Assembly: GCA_028820595.1 (NCBI GenBank)
Contig: JAPPIP010000041.1
Location: 1-33,043, forward strand
Length of the DNA: 33,043 nucleotides
DNA from: Nitrososphaerota archaeon
GTDB taxonomy: Archaea; Thermoproteota; Nitrososphaeria; Nitrososphaerales; Nitrosopumilaceae
Direction: 5' to 3'
Shown: positions 1,502 to 11,604 of the stretch, one piece after another
How positions within the stretch are numbered: position 1 is the stretch's first letter
Layout: the number at the start of each line of letters is the position of its first letter
Position numbers and translations under genes: made by a program
The notes under the pieces: generated by a model
What the model saw: the letters and a program-made list of their open reading frames with translations, nothing else
What the model was told of the DNA's origin: nothing
Databases searched by the model: none

Positions 1502-2446
1502 ATGCACACCGTGCGCATCCCGAAGATCATCAACTTTGGCAAGGACGCCCTGTCCCAGACCGAGTATCCTAGGAACGCGCTCATAGTCACCACGGTCCCG
1601 CCGGAGCTGTCCGACAAGTGGACCTCCAAGATGGGGATAAAGGACTTTATGCTGTACGACAAGGTGACGCCGGAGCCGTCGATTGAGGACGTCAATGCCG
1701 TGATATCGCAGTTCAGGGACAAGGATCCCTCCGTCCTGATAGGGCTCGGGGGCGGGAGCTCGATGGACGTGGTAAAGTACGCGGCCCCCGAGATGAAAAA
1801 GGAGAAGATACTGATACCGACCACCTTTGGGACCGGCGCCGAGATGACCACCTACTGCGTGCTAAAGTTCGAGGGCAAGAAGAAGCTGCTCCGGGAGGAC
1901 AGGTTCCTTGCCGACATGGCGGTGGTTGACTCGTACTTTATGGACGGCACGCCGGAGCAGGTAATCAAGAACTCCGTGTGCGACGCGTGCGCGCAGGCCA
2001 CGGAGGGGTACGACAGCAAGATTGGAAACGACATGACAAGGACGCTGTGCAAGCAGGCGTTTGACATTCTGTACGCCGCCATCATGGAGGACAGGCCGGA
2101 GGACTACCCCTACGGCTCCATGCTCTCCGGCATGGGCTTTGGCAACTGCTCGACTACGCTCGGACACGCGCTCTCCTACGTGTTTTCAAACGAGGGAGTG
2201 CCCCACGGGTACTCGCTGTCGTCGTGCACCACGGTGGCGCACAAGCACAACAGGTCGGTATTCTATGATAGGTTCAAGGAGGCGATGGAAAAGCTCGGCT
2301 TTGACAGGCTCGAGCTAAAGGCAGACGTGTCAGAGGCCGCCGACGTGGTCATGACCGACCGCGGGCACCTGGATCCCAACCCGATACCGATATCAAAGGG
2401 GGATGTCGTAAAGTGCCTAGAGGACATCAAGGCCGGCAACCTGTGA
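1502..2446 (+). CDS. Iron-type alcohol dehydrogenase family; probable malonic/succinic semialdehyde reductase
   Basis: 314 aa, clearly Fe-ADH superfamily: a nucleotide-binding GGGSSMD at residues 83-89, IPTTFGTGAEMT at about 105-116, the metal-site region CDACAQATEGY at 160-170, and H222 and H235 (GHALSY, VPHG). It closely resembles, from memory, the Nitrosopumilus maritimus enzyme Nmar_1110, characterised as an NADPH-dependent malonic semialdehyde reductase of the 3-hydroxypropionate/4-hydroxybutyrate CO2-fixation cycle; the same role is inferred here. It is shorter than typical Fe-ADHs (about 380 aa) at the C-terminus. Compared with E. coli FucO, the ligand His200 is replaced by Gln165 and the catalytic His267 by Tyr226, so metal binding or chemistry may differ. 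Start chosen from the TATA box at 1473. A single transcription unit is likely, as about 190 bp separate it from the next gene. Confidence 0.88.
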   Translation: MHTVRIPKIINFGKDALSQTEYPRNALIVTTVPPELSDKWTSKMGIKDFMLYDKVTPEPSIEDVNAVISQFRDKDPSVLIGLGGGSSMDVVKYAAPEMKKEKILIPTTFGTGAEMTTYCVLKFEGKKKLLREDRFLADMAVVDSYFMDGTPEQVIKNSVCDACAQATEGYDSKIGNDMTRTLCKQAFDILYAAIMEDRPEDYPYGSMLSGMGFGNCSTTLGHALSYVFSNEGVPHGYSLSSCTTVAHKHNRSVFYDRFKEAMEKLGFDRLELKADVSEAADVVMTDRGHLDPNPIPISKGDVVKCLEDIKAGNL

Positions 2447-2638: not shown

Positions 2639-3742
2639 ATGGGCAGGACTGGGATAAAGTTTGGGATTCAAAACGGGCTGAATGTCGCCCGCGCCGGCTA
2701 TACGGAAGACCAGATCCTGACTGCCTGCACGCTTGCCGACAGGACCGGCTATGACTCCATATTCTACATGGATCATACGAACGTCCCGCAGTGGACCAAT
2801 GCCGTCGTGCTTGACCCCTGGGTCATGCTGTCCGCAATTGCGGCCGTCACTAACAACGTAGAGCTCGGGACGTGCGTAACGGATGCCATCCGCAGGCACC
2901 CCTCGAACATCGCCCTTGCGGCAATCACGCTTGATCGCGTCTCAAAGGGCAGGGCCATACTCGGCATAGGCGCCGGCGAGGCCCAGAACCTCAAGGAGTT
3001 CTGCATTCCGTTTGAAAAGCCCGTCTCAAAGTGGGAGGAGCAGATAGAGGTCGTACACACCCTCTATGACTCGACGCCGGACAACACCGTGGACTATGAC
3101 GGCAAGTACTACAAGCTGGAGGGGGCCTGCCTGCAGGCACCGCCGATCCGGAAGCCCAGGCCGCCCACGTACATGGCGGCTGGCGGCAAGCGCACGCTTG
3201 CCCTCACAGGCAAGCTCGGCGACGGCTGGCTTCCCATCGGGTACACTCCGGAGCTCTTCGAGGATCACGCGGGCCAGATCAAGGCGTCAATGGACGCAAG
3301 CGGCAGGACGCAGGAGGAGAAGGACAACTTTGAGTACGCGCTCGACATTGACGTGTACTTTTCAGACGACTCTGAGGAGTCGTGGGCGCGCATGAAGGAG
3401 GCCGTAAAGGTGAGCCTCTTCAAGCCCGAGATACTGCGCGTGCACGGGCTCAAGGAGATAGAGGGCTTTGACTTTAGAAAGTACTTTACGGAATACTCGA
3501 TGTCAAACCAGGACTGGATAGTAAAGATGAGGGAGGCCGCAACGAAGATTCCGGACCCGATCGCGCGCTCGTCCACCGCCGTGGGAACCCCCGACGACGT
3601 GATACCGGTATTCGAGAGGTTCATGGAGGCCGGCGTCAACCACTTTGTCATCAGGTTCTGGGGCAAGAACTATTTCGGCTCTATTGACAAGTTTGCAAGC
3701 CACGTGATGCCCGCCCTGCGCGAAAAGGCGGCCGCGGCGTGA
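2639..3742 (+). CDS. LLM-class F420-dependent oxidoreductase (Mer-like)
   Basis: 367 aa, a single luciferase-like TIM-barrel domain. Diagnostic strings are MGRTGIKFGIQ at the N-terminus, VELGTCVTDAIRRHPSNIA (family L-G-T-x-V-T-D with the downstream R-x-P), GRAILGIGAGEAQN at about 105-118, and PPTYMAAGGKRTLALTGKLGDGWLP at about 174-198. These place it with coenzyme F420-dependent enzymes related to methylenetetrahydromethanopterin reductase. Thaumarchaea carry several such paralogues; the substrate cannot be read from the sequence, so only the class is claimed. The ATG at 2635 is out of frame and opens a short shadow frame, so 2639 is the start. A GGAG lies 10 nt upstream (2627-2630). No strong TATA box is visible at the leaderless position. 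Full length and intact. Confidence 0.88.
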   Translation: MGRTGIKFGIQNGLNVARAGYTEDQILTACTLADRTGYDSIFYMDHTNVPQWTNAVVLDPWVMLSAIAAVTNNVELGTCVTDAIRRHPSNIALAAITLDRVSKGRAILGIGAGEAQNLKEFCIPFEKPVSKWEEQIEVVHTLYDSTPDNTVDYDGKYYKLEGACLQAPPIRKPRPPTYMAAGGKRTLALTGKLGDGWLPIGYTPELFEDHAGQIKASMDASGRTQEEKDNFEYALDIDVYFSDDSEESWARMKEAVKVSLFKPEILRVHGLKEIEGFDFRKYFTEYSMSNQDWIVKMREAATKIPDPIARSSTAVGTPDDVIPVFERFMEAGVNHFVIRFWGKNYFGSIDKFASHVMPALREKAAAA

Positions 3743-3792
3743 CTGCCACACCCGCGACATCAGCTCCCCGCGGCCCGTGCCTGCACATTTGA

Positions 3793-3798
3793 TTTATA
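3793..3798 (+). promoter_or_regulatory. TATA-like box for the split-barrel gene and probably uvrB
   Basis: TTTATA lies about 27 nt before the ATG at 3822. This spacing selects 3822 as the start over upstream in-frame candidates. Confidence 0.55.
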
Positions 3799-3821
3799 GC
3801 ACTATGCGGGGTACCGCCCCC

Positions 3822-4454
3822 ATGCAGCATGCGGGCATACTGCGCATCAAATCCCGGGAAAAGATGATCGAGTTCCTCAACTCTGAGCACATAGGGCGGA
3901 TCGCAAGCATAGACCGCGACGGGTACCCACAGGTCATACCGATGAACTTTGCGTATATTGACGGATCCGTGTACATGCACTCGCACACGCGCGGCGAGAA
4001 GCTAGACAACGTCGCCCGGAACCCGAGGGTCGGATTCGAGGTCGACAGGGAGCTGGAGTTCCTGCCGTCCTACTTTGAGGATCCGCTAGACGCGTCGGTT
4101 GCCGACACGCTGTACATCAGTGTCGTGATAAAGGGCGCGTGCAGCATCGTATCTGACCGAGGCGAGAAGGCGCTTGCGCTCAACGGCCTCATGACAAAGT
4201 ACCAGCCGGAGGGCCGTTACGAGCCGATCAGGCCCGACATGGGGGTGGTCGACGCTGTCGCCATCCTGAAGATCACGCCTGAGGTCATGCACGGCAAGTA
4301 CAAGATAGGGCAGCACATGAGCCGGGAGCGTCGTCGGGAGCTCGCAGGCCAGATACTCGGGCGCGGCTCCCCGACTGCCGCGGAGACGCTCCGCGTAATG
4401 GGGTTCGAGGTGACCGACGACGGGCCCCGGATGGTCGACGAGCCGGTGTGGTGA
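3822..4454 (+). CDS. Pyridoxamine-5'-phosphate-oxidase-like FMN-binding split-barrel protein
   Basis: 210 aa starting MQHAGILRIKSREKM. The N-terminal half is a flavin-binding split barrel: HIGRIASIDRDGYPQVIPMNFAYIDGSVYMHSH, followed by GEKLDNVARNPRVGFEVD and, further on, YISVVIKGACSIVSD. The arrangement recalls the NimA-like/PPOX-related family, which binds FMN, F420 or heme; the actual cofactor and substrate are not evident. The C-terminal 40 residues (RERRRELAGQILG to the end) are family-atypical and may form helices. The stop codon (4452-4454) is two bases before the uvrB ATG, so the two are almost certainly co-transcribed. A functional link to repair is not implied by the sequence. A longer reading from 3777 is possible but would place the start ahead of the TATA box. 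Confidence 0.82.
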   Translation: MQHAGILRIKSREKMIEFLNSEHIGRIASIDRDGYPQVIPMNFAYIDGSVYMHSHTRGEKLDNVARNPRVGFEVDRELEFLPSYFEDPLDASVADTLYISVVIKGACSIVSDRGEKALALNGLMTKYQPEGRYEPIRPDMGVVDAVAILKITPEVMHGKYKIGQHMSRERRRELAGQILGRGSPTAAETLRVMGFEVTDDGPRMVDEPVW

Positions 4455-4456
4455 TC

Positions 4457-6655
4457 ATGGGGCGCGCAAGAATTGTTGCTGCAGACGTGTCGGCTGCTGC
4501 CGCCCCCACCACCACCACCACCGACACCGCCACGGGCACGCCATTCTCCCCCCTGTATGATCATGCCCCCAAATTCGAGCTAGTCTCCCCGTTCGAGCCC
4601 ACCGGGGACCAGCCGCGGGCCGTGTCGGCGCTGGCGTCCGGCGTACAGAAGAACAAGAGGCAGACCCTTCTCGGGGTGACGGGCTCCGGAAAGACGTTTA
4701 CCGTGGCAAACGTGGTTGCCAAGTGCGGCAAGAACACGCTTGTAATATCGCACAACAAGACGCTCGCGGCCCAGCTGTATTCTGAGCTAAAGCAGTTCTT
4801 TCCGCGCAACAACGTGGGCTACTTTGTGTCATATTACGACTACTACCAGCCTGAGAGCTACATACCGCAGACTGACACGTACATTGAAAAGGACACGCAG
4901 GTCAACGAGAAGATCGAGAAGATGCGCCTGGAGGCCACCGCGATGCTGCTCTCCGGCGAGCCGACCATAATCGTCGCCACGGTGTCGTGCATATACTCCC
5001 TTGGAAACCCCCGGGACTGGGACAACCTGGCCCTGCGCGTACGCCGCGGCGACCAGCTGGGGCGCGGCGCGCTGATCCAGAGGCTCGTCGACGCGCGGTA
5101 CGAGCGCAACGACACGGAAGTCGCGCCCGGAAACTTTAGGGTCCGCGGCGACACGCTTGAGATCACGCCTGCGTACTCGGAGGACCTGGTGCGCATATCC
5201 ATGTTCGGAGACGAGATAGAGCGGGTGTCGATACTTGACAAGGTGTCGCGCGACGTGGTGCGGGACCTGCCGGAGCTCCGCATATTCCCGGCAAAGCACT
5301 ACCTCATTGCAAGCGACGTGCGGGCAAGCGCAATCCTGTCGATCAGGGACGAGCTTGCCGGCAGGCTGCCCGAGCTTGCGGAACTTGAGCGGCAGCGTCT
5401 GGAGTCCCGCACGACGTACGATCTTGAGATGATCGAGGAGCTCGGATACTGCTCCGGCATAGAGAACTACTCGAGGCACTTTGACGGCCGCAGGCCGGGC
5501 CAGCAGGCGTTCTGCCTGATGGACTTTTTTGACGAGGACTTTCTGCTGGTCATAGACGAGTCGCACGTGACGCTGCCGCAGCTGCACGGCATGTACAAGG
5601 GGGACCACTCGCGCAAGCGCGAGCTGGTGACGCACGGGTTCAGGCTGGACAGCGCGTACGACAACAGGCCGCTAAAGTTCGAAGAGTTCGAGGAGTACGT
5701 GATGAGGCACCCGACGATATTCGTGTCCGCCACCCCTGCCGCGTACGAGCGCGAGGTCTCCTCGGGGGTGGCCGAGCAGCTCGTGCGGCCCACGGGGCTG
5801 CTTGACCCCCGCGTGGATCTGCGGCCCACGCAGGGGCAGATGGACGACCTGATATCCGAGATAGGCGACAGGGCCGGGCGCGGCGAGCGGGTGCTTGTGA
5901 CCACGCTTACAAAGAGGATGGCCGAGGATCTGGCCGAGTACCTGTCGCGCAGGGACGTGCGCGTGCGGTACCTGCACTCTGAGATAGAGGGGCTGCAGCG
6001 CACGGAGCTGATACGGCAGCTGCGGCTGGGCGAGTTTGACGTGCTTGTCGGGATAAACCTGCTGCGGGAGGGGCTGGACATACCAGAGGTCTCGCTTGTG
6101 GCCATACTTGACGCGGACAAGGAGGGGTTTTTGCGCAACACCACGAGCCTCATACAGACGTTTGGCAGGGCGGCGCGCAACGCAAACGGCTCCGTCATAA
6201 TGTACGCGGACACCGTGACCGACTCGATGAGGGCCGCCATGGACGAGACTGAGCGCCGCCGGAGGAGGCAGTCCGAGTACAACGAGCGGCACGGGCTCGT
6301 GCCGAGAACCATAACCAAGGCAATCCCCGCGGGCGCCGAAGACTCGGGCAAGTTTGACGACTCGAAGACAAAGTCCGTACACGACATACACAGGGAGCTT
6401 GCAGACTTGGGGGCCAAGATGGAGCGGTATTCGCACGATCTCGACTTTGAGCAGGCCATAAAGTGCAGGGATACAATAAAAAGACTGACGGAGGAGCTCG
6501 AGTCAAGAAATGGTGAAAAGGGTGGCGGGGGCCGCGGACGGCAGAAAAAGAGGACCCGCGCTGGCAAGAAAAAGGACGGCGGGGGCCGCGGCAAGGACCG
6601 CAACGGTCGCGACGACACCGGCGGCGATGGCAGCATCAAAAAAGGGCGCCCGTAA
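4457..6655 (+). CDS. uvrB: Excinuclease ABC subunit B (UvrB helicase)
   Basis: 732 aa. UvrB receives damaged DNA from UvrA, verifies the lesion and recruits UvrC. The core begins near residue 40 (FELVSPFEPTGDQPRA), with Walker A GVTGSGKT at about 73-80, the beta-hairpin region YYDYYQPESYIPQ, Walker B LLVIDESHVTLPQ, motif FVSATPA, motif V/VI elements GINLLREGLDIPEVSLVAILDADKEG and QTFGRAARN, and a C-terminal UVR motif (HDLDFEQAIKCRDTIKRL) that contacts UvrC. Two oddities: an N-terminal extension of about 40 residues with a poly-Thr run encoded by ACC repeats, and a Lys/Arg/Gly-rich tail of about 50 residues after the UVR motif. An alternative start is GTG 4448 or 4451, overlapping the upstream stop. 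This bacterial-type repair system in archaea is generally regarded as acquired by transfer. Confidence 0.97.
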   Translation: MGRARIVAADVSAAAAPTTTTTDTATGTPFSPLYDHAPKFELVSPFEPTGDQPRAVSALASGVQKNKRQTLLGVTGSGKTFTVANVVAKCGKNTLVISHNKTLAAQLYSELKQFFPRNNVGYFVSYYDYYQPESYIPQTDTYIEKDTQVNEKIEKMRLEATAMLLSGEPTIIVATVSCIYSLGNPRDWDNLALRVRRGDQLGRGALIQRLVDARYERNDTEVAPGNFRVRGDTLEITPAYSEDLVRISMFGDEIERVSILDKVSRDVVRDLPELRIFPAKHYLIASDVRASAILSIRDELAGRLPELAELERQRLESRTTYDLEMIEELGYCSGIENYSRHFDGRRPGQQAFCLMDFFDEDFLLVIDESHVTLPQLHGMYKGDHSRKRELVTHGFRLDSAYDNRPLKFEEFEEYVMRHPTIFVSATPAAYEREVSSGVAEQLVRPTGLLDPRVDLRPTQGQMDDLISEIGDRAGRGERVLVTTLTKRMAEDLAEYLSRRDVRVRYLHSEIEGLQRTELIRQLRLGEFDVLVGINLLREGLDIPEVSLVAILDADKEGFLRNTTSLIQTFGRAARNANGSVIMYADTVTDSMRAAMDETERRRRRQSEYNERHGLVPRTITKAIPAGAEDSGKFDDSKTKSVHDIHRELADLGAKMERYSHDLDFEQAIKCRDTIKRLTEELESRNGEKGGGGRGRQKKRTRAGKKKDGGGRGKDRNGRDDTGGDGSIKKGRP

Positions 6656-6746
6656 CGGCTCCGCGAGAACTAGGCCCCTGGGTTCTGCATCCCTTTCCCC
6701 CTCTTCCCCCTCTTCCCACTTGCCCCGTCACCCGTACGGTTATGAC

Positions 6747-9722
6747 ATGGCATCCGACGGGATCGACCCTGCGCAGTATGCCGGAAGGCTCACCGTGCGG
6801 GGAGCCCGGCACCACAACCTCAAGAACATTACTGCAAGCATGCCGAAGAACAGCCTGGTGGTGATAAGCGGCCTGTCCGGCTCCGGCAAGTCGTCGCTTG
6901 CGTTTGACACCATATACGCGGAGGGGCAGAGACGGTACGTCGAGTCGCTCTCCGCGTACGCGAGGCAGTTTCTGGAGATGATGGAAAAGCCAGAGGTGGA
7001 CTACATCGAGGGGCTGTCCCCCGCAATCTCCATACAGCAGAAGACCACTGCAAAAAACCCGAGGTCCACTGTGGGAACCACCACCGAGGTATACGACTAT
7101 CTGAGGCTACTGTACGCGCGCATCGGCGTGCCGCACTGCACGGGGTGCGGGAGGAAGATATCGACGCAGTCCCTTGACGCCATATGCGATTCCGTGCTCC
7201 GTATGTACGAGGGGCGGCCGGTTCTGGTGCTGGCGCCCGTAATACAGCGCAAGAAGGGCACACACGAAAAGGTGTTTGATGATGCGAGGCGCGACGGCTT
7301 TTCGCGCGTCCGGGTCAACGGCGAGATGGCATCGCTTCTGGGTGGCGGCGGCGGGCGCCTCCCGGCGCTTGACAAGAAAAAGTGGCACGACATAGAGATC
7401 GTGGTGGACCGCATAACGCCCACCGTGCAGGAGCGCTCACGGCTCTTTGAGTCCGTACAGTCTGCGATAAAGGCGTCAAAGGGCACGGTTGTAATATCCG
7501 TCGCGTCATCGCGCGGTGCGGGCAGCAGCAGCAGCAGCAGCGGCAGCAGCAAGAACATCCGCACCCGCGGCCGCGCCAAGGATTCTTTGAAGGACGCGGT
7601 ATTCTCCCAAAAGAATGCGTGCCCGCACTGCGGGCTGAGCGTAGGCGAGATGGAGCCGCGCAACTTTTCGTTCAACTCGCCCTTTGGCATGTGCGACGAG
7701 TGCCACGGGCTGGGCGTCAACCTGCAGTTTGACGAGGATCTCGTGATTCCAGACCGGTCCATGTGCCTGCTCGAGTACCCGATCGTACCGTGGCGTAGCC
7801 AGTACTCTGCATACAAGACTGACAAGCTGATCGAGGTCGCGGAATACTTTGGGATCGACCTGACCACCCCGCTTGGGAACCTGGGCAAAAAGGAGATGCA
7901 GCTCCTGCTGTGGGGGGCCCCTGAGACCGGCCTGAGGCGGGAGAAGATGTCCACCCTGAAGGATCCCGATACGTACAGCGGGGTGATGAACGACATGTAC
8001 TACATGCTTGAGAACACCACGTCAGACTCGAAGAGGGACTGGCTTCGAAAGTTCATGCGCGACATACCGTGCGGCAGGTGCGGGGGCAAGAAGCTCCGGC
8101 CCGAATCGCTTGCAGTCAGGGTGGGCGGCAGGGGGATAATGGAGGTGTGCGACATGTCAATAGAGTCGTGCCACGAGTTCTTCTCCGATCTGCGACTCTC
8201 GGACATGGAGGCGTACATTGCGCGCGACATACTAAAGGAGATCACGGAGCGGCTGGAGTTTCTGATGAACGTCGGGCTCACCTACCTGACCCTTGACAGG
8301 CGGAGCTCCACCCTGTCCGGCGGCGAGTCGCAGCGCATCAGGCTTGCGACCCAGATAGGCTCCAACCTGACCGGCGTCCTGTACGTGCTCGACGAGCCCA
8401 CCATCGGGCTGCACCAGCGGGACAACGAGCGACTCATCCGCACGCTCACAAAGCTGCGCAACCTGGGAAACACGGTGATAATAGTAGAGCATGACGAGGA
8501 AGTCATACGCAGCTCCGACTATATCGTGGACCTGGGGCCCGGGGCCGGGATACACGGGGGGCACGTCGTGTTTGAGGGTACGGTCCAAGAGATGCTGGCC
8601 GACAGCCGGTCGCACACAAGCGCGTACCTGCGGGGGGAGATGACCGTATCGACTGAGGCGCGCAACGCAGACCCCGAAGGCGACGGCCGCCGCCACAGCC
8701 GCGCCGTCGTGATCCGGGGCGCCTCTGAGCACAACCTAAAGGGCATAGACGTGGAGATTCCGCTCGGGCGATTCGTCTGCGTGACCGGCGTGTCCGGCTC
8801 CGGCAAGTCGACCTTGGTCACGGAGGTTCTCTACAAGGGGTTGATGGCGTGTATGTACCAATCCACCGCCAGGGCGGGCGCGCACAAGAGGATAGACGGC
8901 ATGCAGCATGTCGACAAGGTGATAGAGATAGACCAGTCCCCCATAGGAAGGACGCCGCGCTCGAACCCGGCCACGTACATCGACGTGTTCACCCCCGTGC
9001 GCGTCATATTTGCCTCGACCCCGCTTGCGCGCACGCGTGGCTACGAGCCGGGCCAGTTCTCATTCAACGTCAAGGTGGGCCGGTGCTTTGCGTGCGAGGG
9101 GGCGGGCGTAAAGCAGATCGAGATGCAGTTCCTCTCCGACGTGCAGGTCACGTGCGACGAGTGCGGCGGCAAGCGGTACAATTCTGAGACGCTTGCAGTC
9201 ACGTACAAGGGAAAGAACATCACGGAGGTCCTTGACATGTCGATAGACGAGGCGCTCGAGTTCTTTGCAAACGTCCCCGCGGTGCGCTCAAAGCTGCAGA
9301 CCATGGCCGACGTGGGACTCGGGTACATCAAGCTGGGGCAGCCCTCCACCACCCTGTCGGGAGGGGAGGCGCAGAGGGTAAAGCTTGCATCCGAGCTGTC
9401 CCGCCCCAGCACGGGCAGGACCATGTACATACTCGACGAGCCCACCACCGGGCTGCACTTTGCAGACGTGCAAAAGCTGCTTGACGTGCTTGACCGGCTT
9501 GTCAGGATGGGAAACACCGTGGTGGTCATAGAGCACAACATGGACGTGATCAGGAACTCGGACTGGATAATAGATCTGGGCCCCGAGGGCGGCGAGGCGG
9601 GCGGCCAGATAGTGTGCACGGGGACGCCCGAGCAGGTGGCCGAGGTGCCGGAGAGCCACACGGGGCGGTACCTGCTCCGGGCGCTTGCCGCAAAAAGGCG
9701 CGGCAAGGCAGACAAGCAGTGA
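6747..9722 (+). CDS. uvrA: Excinuclease ABC subunit A (UvrA)
   Basis: 991 aa dual ABC-ATPase that scans DNA for damage and loads UvrB. First Walker [10 protein letters not shown] at about residues 46-54, second GVSGSGKST in the C-terminal half. There are two ABC signatures ([12 protein letters not shown] and [12 protein letters not shown]) and two Walker B/D-loops ([28 protein letters not shown]). Zinc-binding Cys pairs are seen at CTGCG, CPHCG with CDECHG, CGRCGG, and CFACEG with CDECGG. A Ser-rich insert at about 255-266, encoded by AGC repeats, precedes the insertion-domain zinc site. ATG 6747 was chosen because conserved sequence starts about 14 residues later; the open frame extends upstream into uvrB but with no family similarity. 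The gap to uvrB is 91 bp without a clear TATA box, so read-through from the uvrB transcript is likely. Confidence 0.97.
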
Positions 9723-9756
9723 TATTTGACATGGTTCTTGCAGTGACTGTTTTGAA

Positions 9757-11604
9757 ATGACGCCTGCTGACACCGCTGCCGCCTCCACTGCTAACGCGCC
9801 GCAGCACTCGCCACCACCACCACCCACACCGCAGCGGCCGTTTGACATGCAGCCTTCTGCGATACCCGACAGCCCCGGGGTCTACATAATGAAGGACGTC
9901 AAGGGGCGCATAATCTACATCGGCAAGGCAAAGAGCCTGCGCAAGCGCGTAAGGTCGTACTTTGGCAACAAGACGCACGATAACTACAAGACGCAGAGGC
10001 TGGTGGAGCTGGTGGCCGGCGTGGAGTTTGTGGTAACCGACACGGAGGGCGAGGCCTTCCTGCTCGAGTCCAACATGATAAAGCGGCACCGGCCGCGCTT
10101 TAACATCGAGCTCAAGGACCAGCAGCGCTACACGTACCTGCGGATATCAGATGAAAAATACCCGCGGCTGCTGGTGTCCAGGCGGACCCGGGACGGGCGC
10201 TTTCTTGGCAAGGGGCAGACCTTTGGGCCGTTTGTGCAGGGGAGCTCCAAGATACTCACAGTCGGGGCGCTGAGAAAGGCGTTTCAGATACGCATCTGCA
10301 AGACACTCCCAAAAAAGGTCTGCCTGGAGTACCACCTTGGAAACTGCGAGGGGCCCTGCGAGTTCGAGTCGGCCCAGAAGAGGTACCAGGGTCACGTCGA
10401 CGCCCTCAGGGACGTCCTTGCGGGATCCGACCAGCTAAAGATTTTCTCTGAAAAGCTGAGGCTGCAGATGAAAGAGGCTGCCGACGCGAGGCACTTTGAG
10501 CGCGCAATAGAGATACGGGACACGCTTGTCCGCCTTGACGGGCTGAACTCGGGCCAGAAGATGGAGCGCGTGAAGAGCTCCGACGAGGAGTACTTTGGCA
10601 TCGCAGTACGCGACCACACGGCCGTGGTCATGACGTTCCGCATGATTCACGGGGTGATTCGGGACAGCGACAAGTTCGTGTTTGACGCGATGGCCGACAA
10701 CACGTTTGCCGGGTTCCTGTACCAGTATTATACGACCAGGCGCATACCGCACCACATCGTACTGAGCGAGATGCCGCAGGACGCGGAACTCTTGGAGTCC
10801 CTGCTCTCTGAGCGCGCAGGCCACGCGGTGGACATGTCGGTGCCCCAGAGGGGCAGGCGCAAGGAGATGATTGACCTGATACTAAGAAACGTAGCGATAG
10901 TGCATGAAAGCGGCGCCGGCGATTATGACGAGGCCGGCGACTCTCTTGGCGCCGTGGACGGCCGTATTGGGAGCGGCCGCTTCCCACCATCTGCAGAGTC
11001 TCCCGGACTCTTGCAGCTGCAGGGCGCGCTCGGGCTCGCGCGCATCCCGCACGTAATAGAGTGCTTTGACGTTTCAAACCACGGCGAGGCGTTTGCGGTG
11101 GGCTCGATGTCGCGGTTTGTGGGGGGCGTTCCTGACAAGTCGGGGTACCGCAGATTCAGGATAAAGACCGTGGACGGCCGTGACGACTATGCGATGATAT
11201 CTGAGATTGTCCACAGGAGGTATCGCCGCATCCTGGACGGGAGGGCGGGTAGCCGCGGCGGCAGCGGCCGCGGCGATGCTGATGACAATGATGTTGCCCC
11301 TGCCGCCGACCCCGGCACGGACAAAAAGACAGCAGAGCTTCCCGACTTGGTGGTAATTGACGGCGGCAAGGGACAGCTTGGCGCCGCGCTAAAGTCGCTT
11401 TTCAAGCTGGGGCTGCACGACCTGCCCTGCGTCTCGCTTGCAAAGGAGAACGAGGAGGTGTACGTGCCTGGGCGCAGCGACCCGGTCGTGATCCCGAGAA
11501 GCGACCGGTCACTTAAGATACTGCAGCATGCCCGGGACGAGTCGCACAGGTTCGGCGTGTCGTACAACCGCGCCCTCCAGAAAAAGATGATGCAGAACCG
11601 GTAA
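9757..11604 (+). CDS. uvrC: Excinuclease ABC subunit C (UvrC nuclease)
   Basis: 615 aa dual-incision nuclease of the UvrABC system. The N-terminal GIY-YIG domain (GVYIMKDVKG, RIIYIGKAKSLRKRVRSYFG, about residues 41-70) makes the 3' cut. A Cys-rich segment (CLEYHLGNCEGPC) and a UVR motif (about 230-260) follow. The RNase H-like endonuclease core (IECFDVSNHGEAFAVGSM, LVVIDGGKGQL, VSLAKENEEVYVPG) makes the 5' cut. The protein stops at RDESHRFGVSYNRALQKKMMQNR and so lacks the C-terminal tandem helix-hairpin-helix of bacterial UvrC. The N-terminal 30 residues are a Pro/Ala/Thr-rich extension; ATG 9847 just before the conserved part is an alternative start. TATTTGA at 9723-9729 could be a weak TATA box for 9757. 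The gap to uvrA is only 34 bp. Confidence 0.95.
   Translation: MTPADTAAASTANAPQHSPPPPPTPQRPFDMQPSAIPDSPGVYIMKDVKGRIIYIGKAKSLRKRVRSYFGNKTHDNYKTQRLVELVAGVEFVVTDTEGEAFLLESNMIKRHRPRFNIELKDQQRYTYLRISDEKYPRLLVSRRTRDGRFLGKGQTFGPFVQGSSKILTVGALRKAFQIRICKTLPKKVCLEYHLGNCEGPCEFESAQKRYQGHVDALRDVLAGSDQLKIFSEKLRLQMKEAADARHFERAIEIRDTLVRLDGLNSGQKMERVKSSDEEYFGIAVRDHTAVVMTFRMIHGVIRDSDKFVFDAMADNTFAGFLYQYYTTRRIPHHIVLSEMPQDAELLESLLSERAGHAVDMSVPQRGRRKEMIDLILRNVAIVHESGAGDYDEAGDSLGAVDGRIGSGRFPPSAESPGLLQLQGALGLARIPHVIECFDVSNHGEAFAVGSMSRFVGGVPDKSGYRRFRIKTVDGRDDYAMISEIVHRRYRRILDGRAGSRGGSGRGDADDNDVAPAADPGTDKKTAELPDLVVIDGGKGQLGAALKSLFKLGLHDLPCVSLAKENEEVYVPGRSDPVVIPRSDRSLKILQHARDESHRFGVSYNRALQKKMMQNR

Follow-up and report, generated by a model that had tools for sequence, protein, structure and literature searches.

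Sulfoacetaldehyde reductase of Bifidobacterium kashiwanohense (BkTauF), a member of the iron-type alcohol dehydrogenase (Fe-ADH) superfamily, is described as binding zinc in its crystal structure through Asp192, Gln196, His261 and His275, of which Gln196 was termed atypical by the authors and gives way to His in several close homologues (PMC6616044). Its pocket is formed by Phe252, Thr257 and Phe265, the last being Tyr in a number of homologues, and the T257A and F265A variants are almost devoid of activity (PMC6616044). EDTA abolishes the activity of BkTauF, adding back zinc or iron brings it to 85% or 15%, respectively, and 3-hydroxypropionate, the compound that malonic semialdehyde reductase forms, supports 15% of activity (PMC6616044). 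Escherichia coli FucO, reported to be active only with Fe2+, has a pocket lined by Phe254, residue 259 and Cys362 and a His267 that hydrogen-bonds the catalytic water (PMC10324492); this His, whose counterpart in human ADHFE1 is Tyr334, does not act as a metal ligand (PMC5125639). In ammonia-oxidizing archaea (AOA), Nmar_1110 of Nitrosopumilus maritimus, also of the Fe-ADH family, is reported in citing literature as a malonic semialdehyde reductase.

The Fe-ADH gene, its protein and its predicted fold

The window, by which we mean the whole stretch of DNA analysed (33,043 nucleotides, positions 1-33043), carries a gene of this family close to its start:

1472-1479, + strand: TATA-like box ATATAATA, spotted by eye 23-30 bases upstream of the ATG
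1502-2446, + strand: Fe-ADH open reading frame, ATG to TGA, 314 aa; putative malonic semialdehyde reductase of the Nmar_1110 type

Pfam profile searches placed the protein among type III Fe-ADHs, with the curated cut-offs passed for both PF00465 (91.3 bits, E 7e-26, cut-off 31.3) and PF25137 (48.2 bits, E 1.4e-12, cut-off 27). Its top NCBIfam scores were to the AdhE, lactaldehyde reductase, PsrA and SarD models, and it reached no curated NCBIfam equivalog cut-off, scoring 77.5 bits against a cut-off of 700 for SarD (NF050025) and 78.7 bits against 423.7 for PsrA (TIGR03405).

An AlphaFold2 model computed from an input of 39 sequences (mean pLDDT 94.1, pTM 0.91) matched over residues 1-314 the type III ADH fold, composed of a nucleotide-binding and a helical metal-binding domain, with Z of about 40. 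In VIA-align comparisons the alcohol dehydrogenase domain of AdhE (Z 40.4) and FucO (1RRM; Z 40.1, 312 residues, 26% identity) ranked above BkTauF (6JKO; Z 36.8, 309 aligned residues, 23% identity). The archaeal chain is shorter than those of FucO (382 residues) and BkTauF (380 residues) and appears compact, with 58 residues from H235 to N293 compared with 89 in FucO; its metal Asp lies at position 161, against 195 in the FucO translation, and the fold match still spans residues 1-314.

The active site and its conservation

The residues aligned with the metal and pocket positions of FucO and BkTauF are the following:

1982-1984 (GAC), + strand: D161, metal ligand column; FucO Asp196, BkTauF Asp192
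1994-1996 (CAG), + strand: Q165, column of FucO His200; BkTauF Gln196, a zinc ligand in the crystal
2138-2140, + strand: F213, substrate-pocket column; FucO Phe254, BkTauF Phe252
2153-2155, + strand: T218, substrate-pocket column; FucO Leu259, BkTauF Thr257 (T257A almost inactive)
2165-2167 (CAC), + strand: H222, metal ligand column; FucO His263, BkTauF His261
2177-2179 (TAC), + strand: Y226, column of FucO His267; BkTauF Phe265, Tyr in some homologues
2204-2206 (CAC), + strand: H235, metal ligand column; FucO His277, BkTauF His275
2366-2368, + strand: H289, in an HLDxNP motif; aligned with the FucO pocket residue Cys362

FucO numbering follows the crystal literature, the translation NP_417279.2 being one lower (195/199/262/266/276). 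An earlier note on this DNA had aligned D161, Q165, H222, Y226 and H235 by eye with the FucO columns, within an interval (1982-2208) that indeed encloses all five codons from D161 to H235, and its pairing was right: the window/FucO letters D/D, Q/H, H/H, Y/H and H/H were unchanged under four MAFFT modes. An alignment artefact behind the substitutions was ruled out, the three additional modes having given identical columns. The Asp-His-His-His four-ligand set is thus incomplete in the window protein, which has D161, H222 and H235, with Q165 in the second column. Since BkTauF, an accepted Fe-ADH, departs in the same way, the four-ligand feature is not universal, and the window protein matches by column the complete BkTauF-type arrangement, both the Asp-Gln-His-His set (D161, Q165, H222, H235) and Phe252/Thr257/(Phe/Tyr)265 (F213, T218, Y226).

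The note had further supposed that these residues are common to thaumarchaeal homologues, and the alignment it proposed bears this out. The letters D-Q-F-T-H-Y-H at positions 161/165/213/218/222/226/235 were found in 126/126 orthologue loci, or 118/118 distinct sequences with the window included, and were identical in six of six paralogue loci. The orthologue loci comprise 80 from one set (the best 80 of 136 relatives, a set therefore biased to near relatives) and 46 from a second collection; because the two collections have species in common, they reduce to 117 distinct sequences (118 once the window is counted), and all are at least 59% identical. One orthologue (L062) ends at a contig end (271 aa), with the site positions covered. 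Recurrence of the same letters in all 126 loci means that the substitutions are not a single-assembly error, and the D-Q-F-T-H-Y-H trait looks fixed in the AOA sampled. Among the best 80 of 136 relatives, the closest by protein were those of the metagenome-assembled genomes 277c_18 and p16x60bins.31, at 97-98% identity.

How unusual the two substitutions are can be read from 76 Fe-ADH rows, which are search matches and thus a non-random sample. Column 226 held Tyr in 51, His in 18, Phe in one and other residues in six; after removal of the 20 AOA rows Tyr was still present in 31/56 (26/49 after thinning at 70% identity). Column 165 held His in 42 rows, Gln in 29, Asn in four and Thr in one, with Gln in 9/56 rows outside AOA (9/49 thinned at 70% identity). 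Likewise, 15 distant Thermoproteota Fe-ADHs had Tyr (10) or His (5) in column 226 and His (11) or Asn (4) in column 165; they come from 17 distant archaeal regions, and the counts leave out two of these, L145 and L147, in which tblastn found no match at 1e-3. The 76-row trees exclude seven fragments or near-copies (V_L185, V_L179, V_L180, V_L181, V_L184, V_L176 and V_L164), and five long AdhE-like rows were trimmed to their last 440 residues. Compared with the glycerol dehydrogenase-like three-ligand zinc enzymes (Asp plus two His), the window protein has Q165 where GldA has Thr.

By these letters, Tyr at column 226 is ordinary and Gln at column 165 is uncommon but known. Both substitutions on which the earlier note had built its reading, that of a metal ligand and that of the catalytic His, are real; FucO His267 is not itself a metal ligand. 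What falls away is most of the novelty of a changed active site: the BkTauF crystal already shows a Gln zinc ligand in the His200 column, and Tyr, which had been counted as a change from His267, is the commonest letter there among the non-AOA rows. FucO, which shares the fold and three of four metal ligands with the window protein and has His200, His267, Leu259 and Cys362 where the latter has Q165, Y226, T218 and H289, is a distant comparator of another sub-type, and because Tyr is so common at the His267 column, reading Fe-ADHs against FucO alone overstates differences there. A limited literature search met no comment on this archaeal Gln in passages of sources including PMC4510362, PMC5797428, PMC8287830, PMC8836905, PMC7826944, PMC7845616 and PMC6038301.

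Descent of the site and its viral relatives

In a quick tree built from all columns, the AOA enzymes grouped with TauF, phosphonoacetaldehyde reductase and viral rows (SH-aLRT support 98). With the seven site columns removed, the 76 rows placed AOA beside a haloarchaeal Fe-ADH (L195) with support of 27/15. When 11 rows were also dropped, a choice made after the 76-row tree, AOA, TauF, phosphonoacetaldehyde reductase, the viral rows and four archaeal Fe-ADHs came together (99/97); most of the dropped rows had been flagged as long, L195, L198, V_L187 and V_L175 had not. Only 20% of bootstrap trees separated the narrower group, lacking the four archaeal rows, from all other rows. As L195 is itself among the dropped rows, and the grouping is lost without the site columns on 76 rows, we do not claim a firm common origin with TauF; the site common to AOA and TauF may be either inherited or convergent. 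A stronger version of separate descent, in which AOA fixed a Gln-containing site for zinc and not for ferrous iron, which is sensitive to oxygen, together with a lineage-specific pocket residue, H289, for the substrate carboxylate, apart from the TauF and phosphonate enzymes, appears doubtful to us; if true, this ligand change would release from iron and from oxygen damage one step in an aerobic CO2 fixation cycle of high energy efficiency.

Nine Fe-ADHs from viral contigs share Thr, His, Tyr and His at columns 218, 222, 226 and 235, have Gln (7/9) or His (2/9) at column 165 and Ile at column 213 in all nine; eight are short (261-287 aa) and the ninth has 359 residues. Seven of the nine loci have a gene for PEP mutase upstream of the Fe-ADH, and six of those seven proteins have Gln in column 165. 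Among the neighbours scanned, pieces of TPP enzymes adjoin the Fe-ADH in L155, L157 and L175 (as split genes in L155) and cytidylyltransferases adjoin it in L155 and L160, compatible with an apparent phage island for phosphonate (2-hydroxyethylphosphonate) biosynthesis. This gene context suggests that the viral enzymes reduce phosphonoacetaldehyde; the virus-encoded genes named in the accessible text of PMC13188868 are for phosphonate degradation, not synthesis. In L155, L157, L158, L159, L160, L162 and L168 the Fe-ADH occupies about 1480-2370 of each locus, and in L158 and L159 a SU10 adaptor gene lies nearby, on contigs that are phage-like. A scan of viral contigs with a piece of BkTauF found no relative.

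The window protein resembles phosphonoacetaldehyde reductases of the HEPD/PsrA type (TIGR03405; Vibrio L192; viral L155-L168) in the Thr218 and Tyr226 columns and, in having Q165, those members of a type with either Gln or His there; the viral rows of this type that could be scored also have a basic residue before an NP motif (Vibrio L192 was not scorable). It differs from them in falling below the TIGR03405 cut-off and in its presumed substrate, and the viral rows differ from it in having Ile at 213.

This basic position, which is H289 in AOA, bears on whether a His elsewhere replaces the missing one. Only H222, H235, H247 and H289 are invariant His residues across 133 AOA rows. H247 was rejected as a replacement ligand: the AlphaFold2 model puts it in one helix (235-250) with H235, 12 residues further along, and it should for that reason sit far from the metal. 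An alignment or structure with another His in the ligand position had been named beforehand as the result that would overturn the reading of a changed site; no further invariant His is obviously so placed, and H289 is retained as a rival since it could serve in that role. According to this alternative, H289 would complete the metal site instead of Q165, or stand in for the catalytic His, in a rearranged site that is not TauF-like. The invariance of H289 (133/133 AOA rows) and its alignment with the pocket-lining Cys362 of FucO are in its favour. However, the FucO position is described as lining the pocket and not as a ligand (PMC10324492), and a basic residue here marks the Tyr type generally, proteins with His in the H200 column included. 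It was found 4-5 positions before the NP motif in 28/28 non-AOA rows with Tyr in column 226 and in 0/18 with His, a count of 46 non-AOA rows (66/83 rows were scorable overall, and some are near-copies) under a rule picked after looking at the rows. BkTauF, represented by residues 67-114 and 129-323, is not part of this count. Because the split follows clades and the tree offers one or two independent contrasts, it separates types and is not proof of coupling. We consider H289 as ligand or catalytic residue distinctly unlikely, and more naturally a pocket residue that would lie near the substrate carboxylate.

Probable metal, substrate and place in carbon fixation

The window protein is most probably, and we hold this with good confidence, a malonic semialdehyde reductase of the Nmar_1110 type whose Gln-containing site, probably with zinc, is suited to small anionic aldehydes. 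It shares with BkTauF (PDB 6JKO/6JKP) the D-Q-F-T-H-(F/Y)-H set, the superfamily fold and, on this reading, a small anionic aldehyde as substrate, and differs from it in low overall identity, in having Tyr in place of Phe265 and in that BkTauF acts on a sulfonate. Because small size and an anionic tail are common to sulfoacetaldehyde, phosphonoacetaldehyde and malonic semialdehyde, the site can be read as suited to such substrates, and a Gln (TauF)-type metal site predicts zinc rather than iron. By analogy with BkTauF, we infer that the metal, most likely zinc, would be held by D161, Q165, H222 and H235, a set in which Gln takes over from one His; that it would polarise the aldehyde, which would take a hydride from the nicotinamide and a proton from water; that Y226 would occupy the place where FucO His267 positions water; and that F213, T218 and H289 would line the pocket, favouring small aldehydes whose tail carries a negative charge.

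An enzyme that works without metal, in the manner of maleylacetate reductases and with a decaying metal site, would also account for the loss of one His ligand. One review makes the case that maleylacetate reductases function without metal and infers the same for some phosphonate-type members with Gln at the Asp position (PMC5125639), and zinc was present in only one of four BkTauF crystal subunits, so that ligation by Gln may be weak (PMC6616044). D161 nevertheless preserves the Asp that maleylacetate reductases characteristically lack, three of the four ligands are invariant in 118/118 distinct sequences, and BkTauF, with the same residues, is inactivated by EDTA and restored by zinc (PMC6616044). 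We regard metal independence as very improbable and the zinc-dependent reading as the better one.

An orthologue of the window protein was present in all 44 listed genomes of the family to which the window belongs (f1) and in 3/3 of a further family (f3), so that, like Nmar_1110, the window protein belongs to an iron-type ADH group of AOA, found here in all 47 f1 and f3 genomes. It was found in none of three f2 genomes, where one weak match was obtained at 9.2e-4, which, provided that f2 is the family of Ca. Nitrosocaldus cavascurensis, agrees with the absence reported for that organism. N. maritimus lies outside the named loci (the best 80 of 136 relatives), and we therefore infer orthology of the window protein with Nmar_1110 from this distribution among genomes. 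The enzyme would serve a carbon fixation step in very abundant marine archaea.

Alternatively, the gene might encode mainly a succinic semialdehyde reductase, or an enzyme for both malonic and succinic semialdehyde. In favour of this, a PF00465 search of the window genome (91.65% complete) gave the reductase gene and one other protein only, which is nearest to glycerol-1-phosphate dehydrogenase but scores 378.9 bits where that model requires 413. A paralogue (L130-L135; 44-49% identical, with the identical site), possibly of the Nmar_0161 type and a candidate succinic semialdehyde reductase, occurs in just 6/47 orthologue-bearing genomes. Nmar_1110 was reportedly much weaker with succinic semialdehyde in the 2015 work of Otte, which speaks against the succinic assignment, as does the characterised enzyme being reported as a malonic semialdehyde reductase. 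On the succinic side, KEGG places K18602 (succinate semialdehyde reductase) on both Nmar_1110 and Nmar_161, an assignment that the paper noting it calls wrong, and the N. maritimus enzyme for succinic semialdehyde is still given as unidentified in a paper of 2018. On balance a mainly succinic or dual role seems unlikely, and malonic semialdehyde remains the favoured substrate.

Downstream of the reductase gene and on the same strand lie genes for a luciferase-like oxidoreductase (2639-3742) and a pyridoxamine-phosphate-oxidase-like protein (3777-4454). These are followed on the + strand by consecutive genes with UvrB, UvrA and UvrC domains (4448-11604), in which the UvrB and UvrA frames overlap. 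The window has a G+C content of 61%, which is high for Nitrosopumilaceae.
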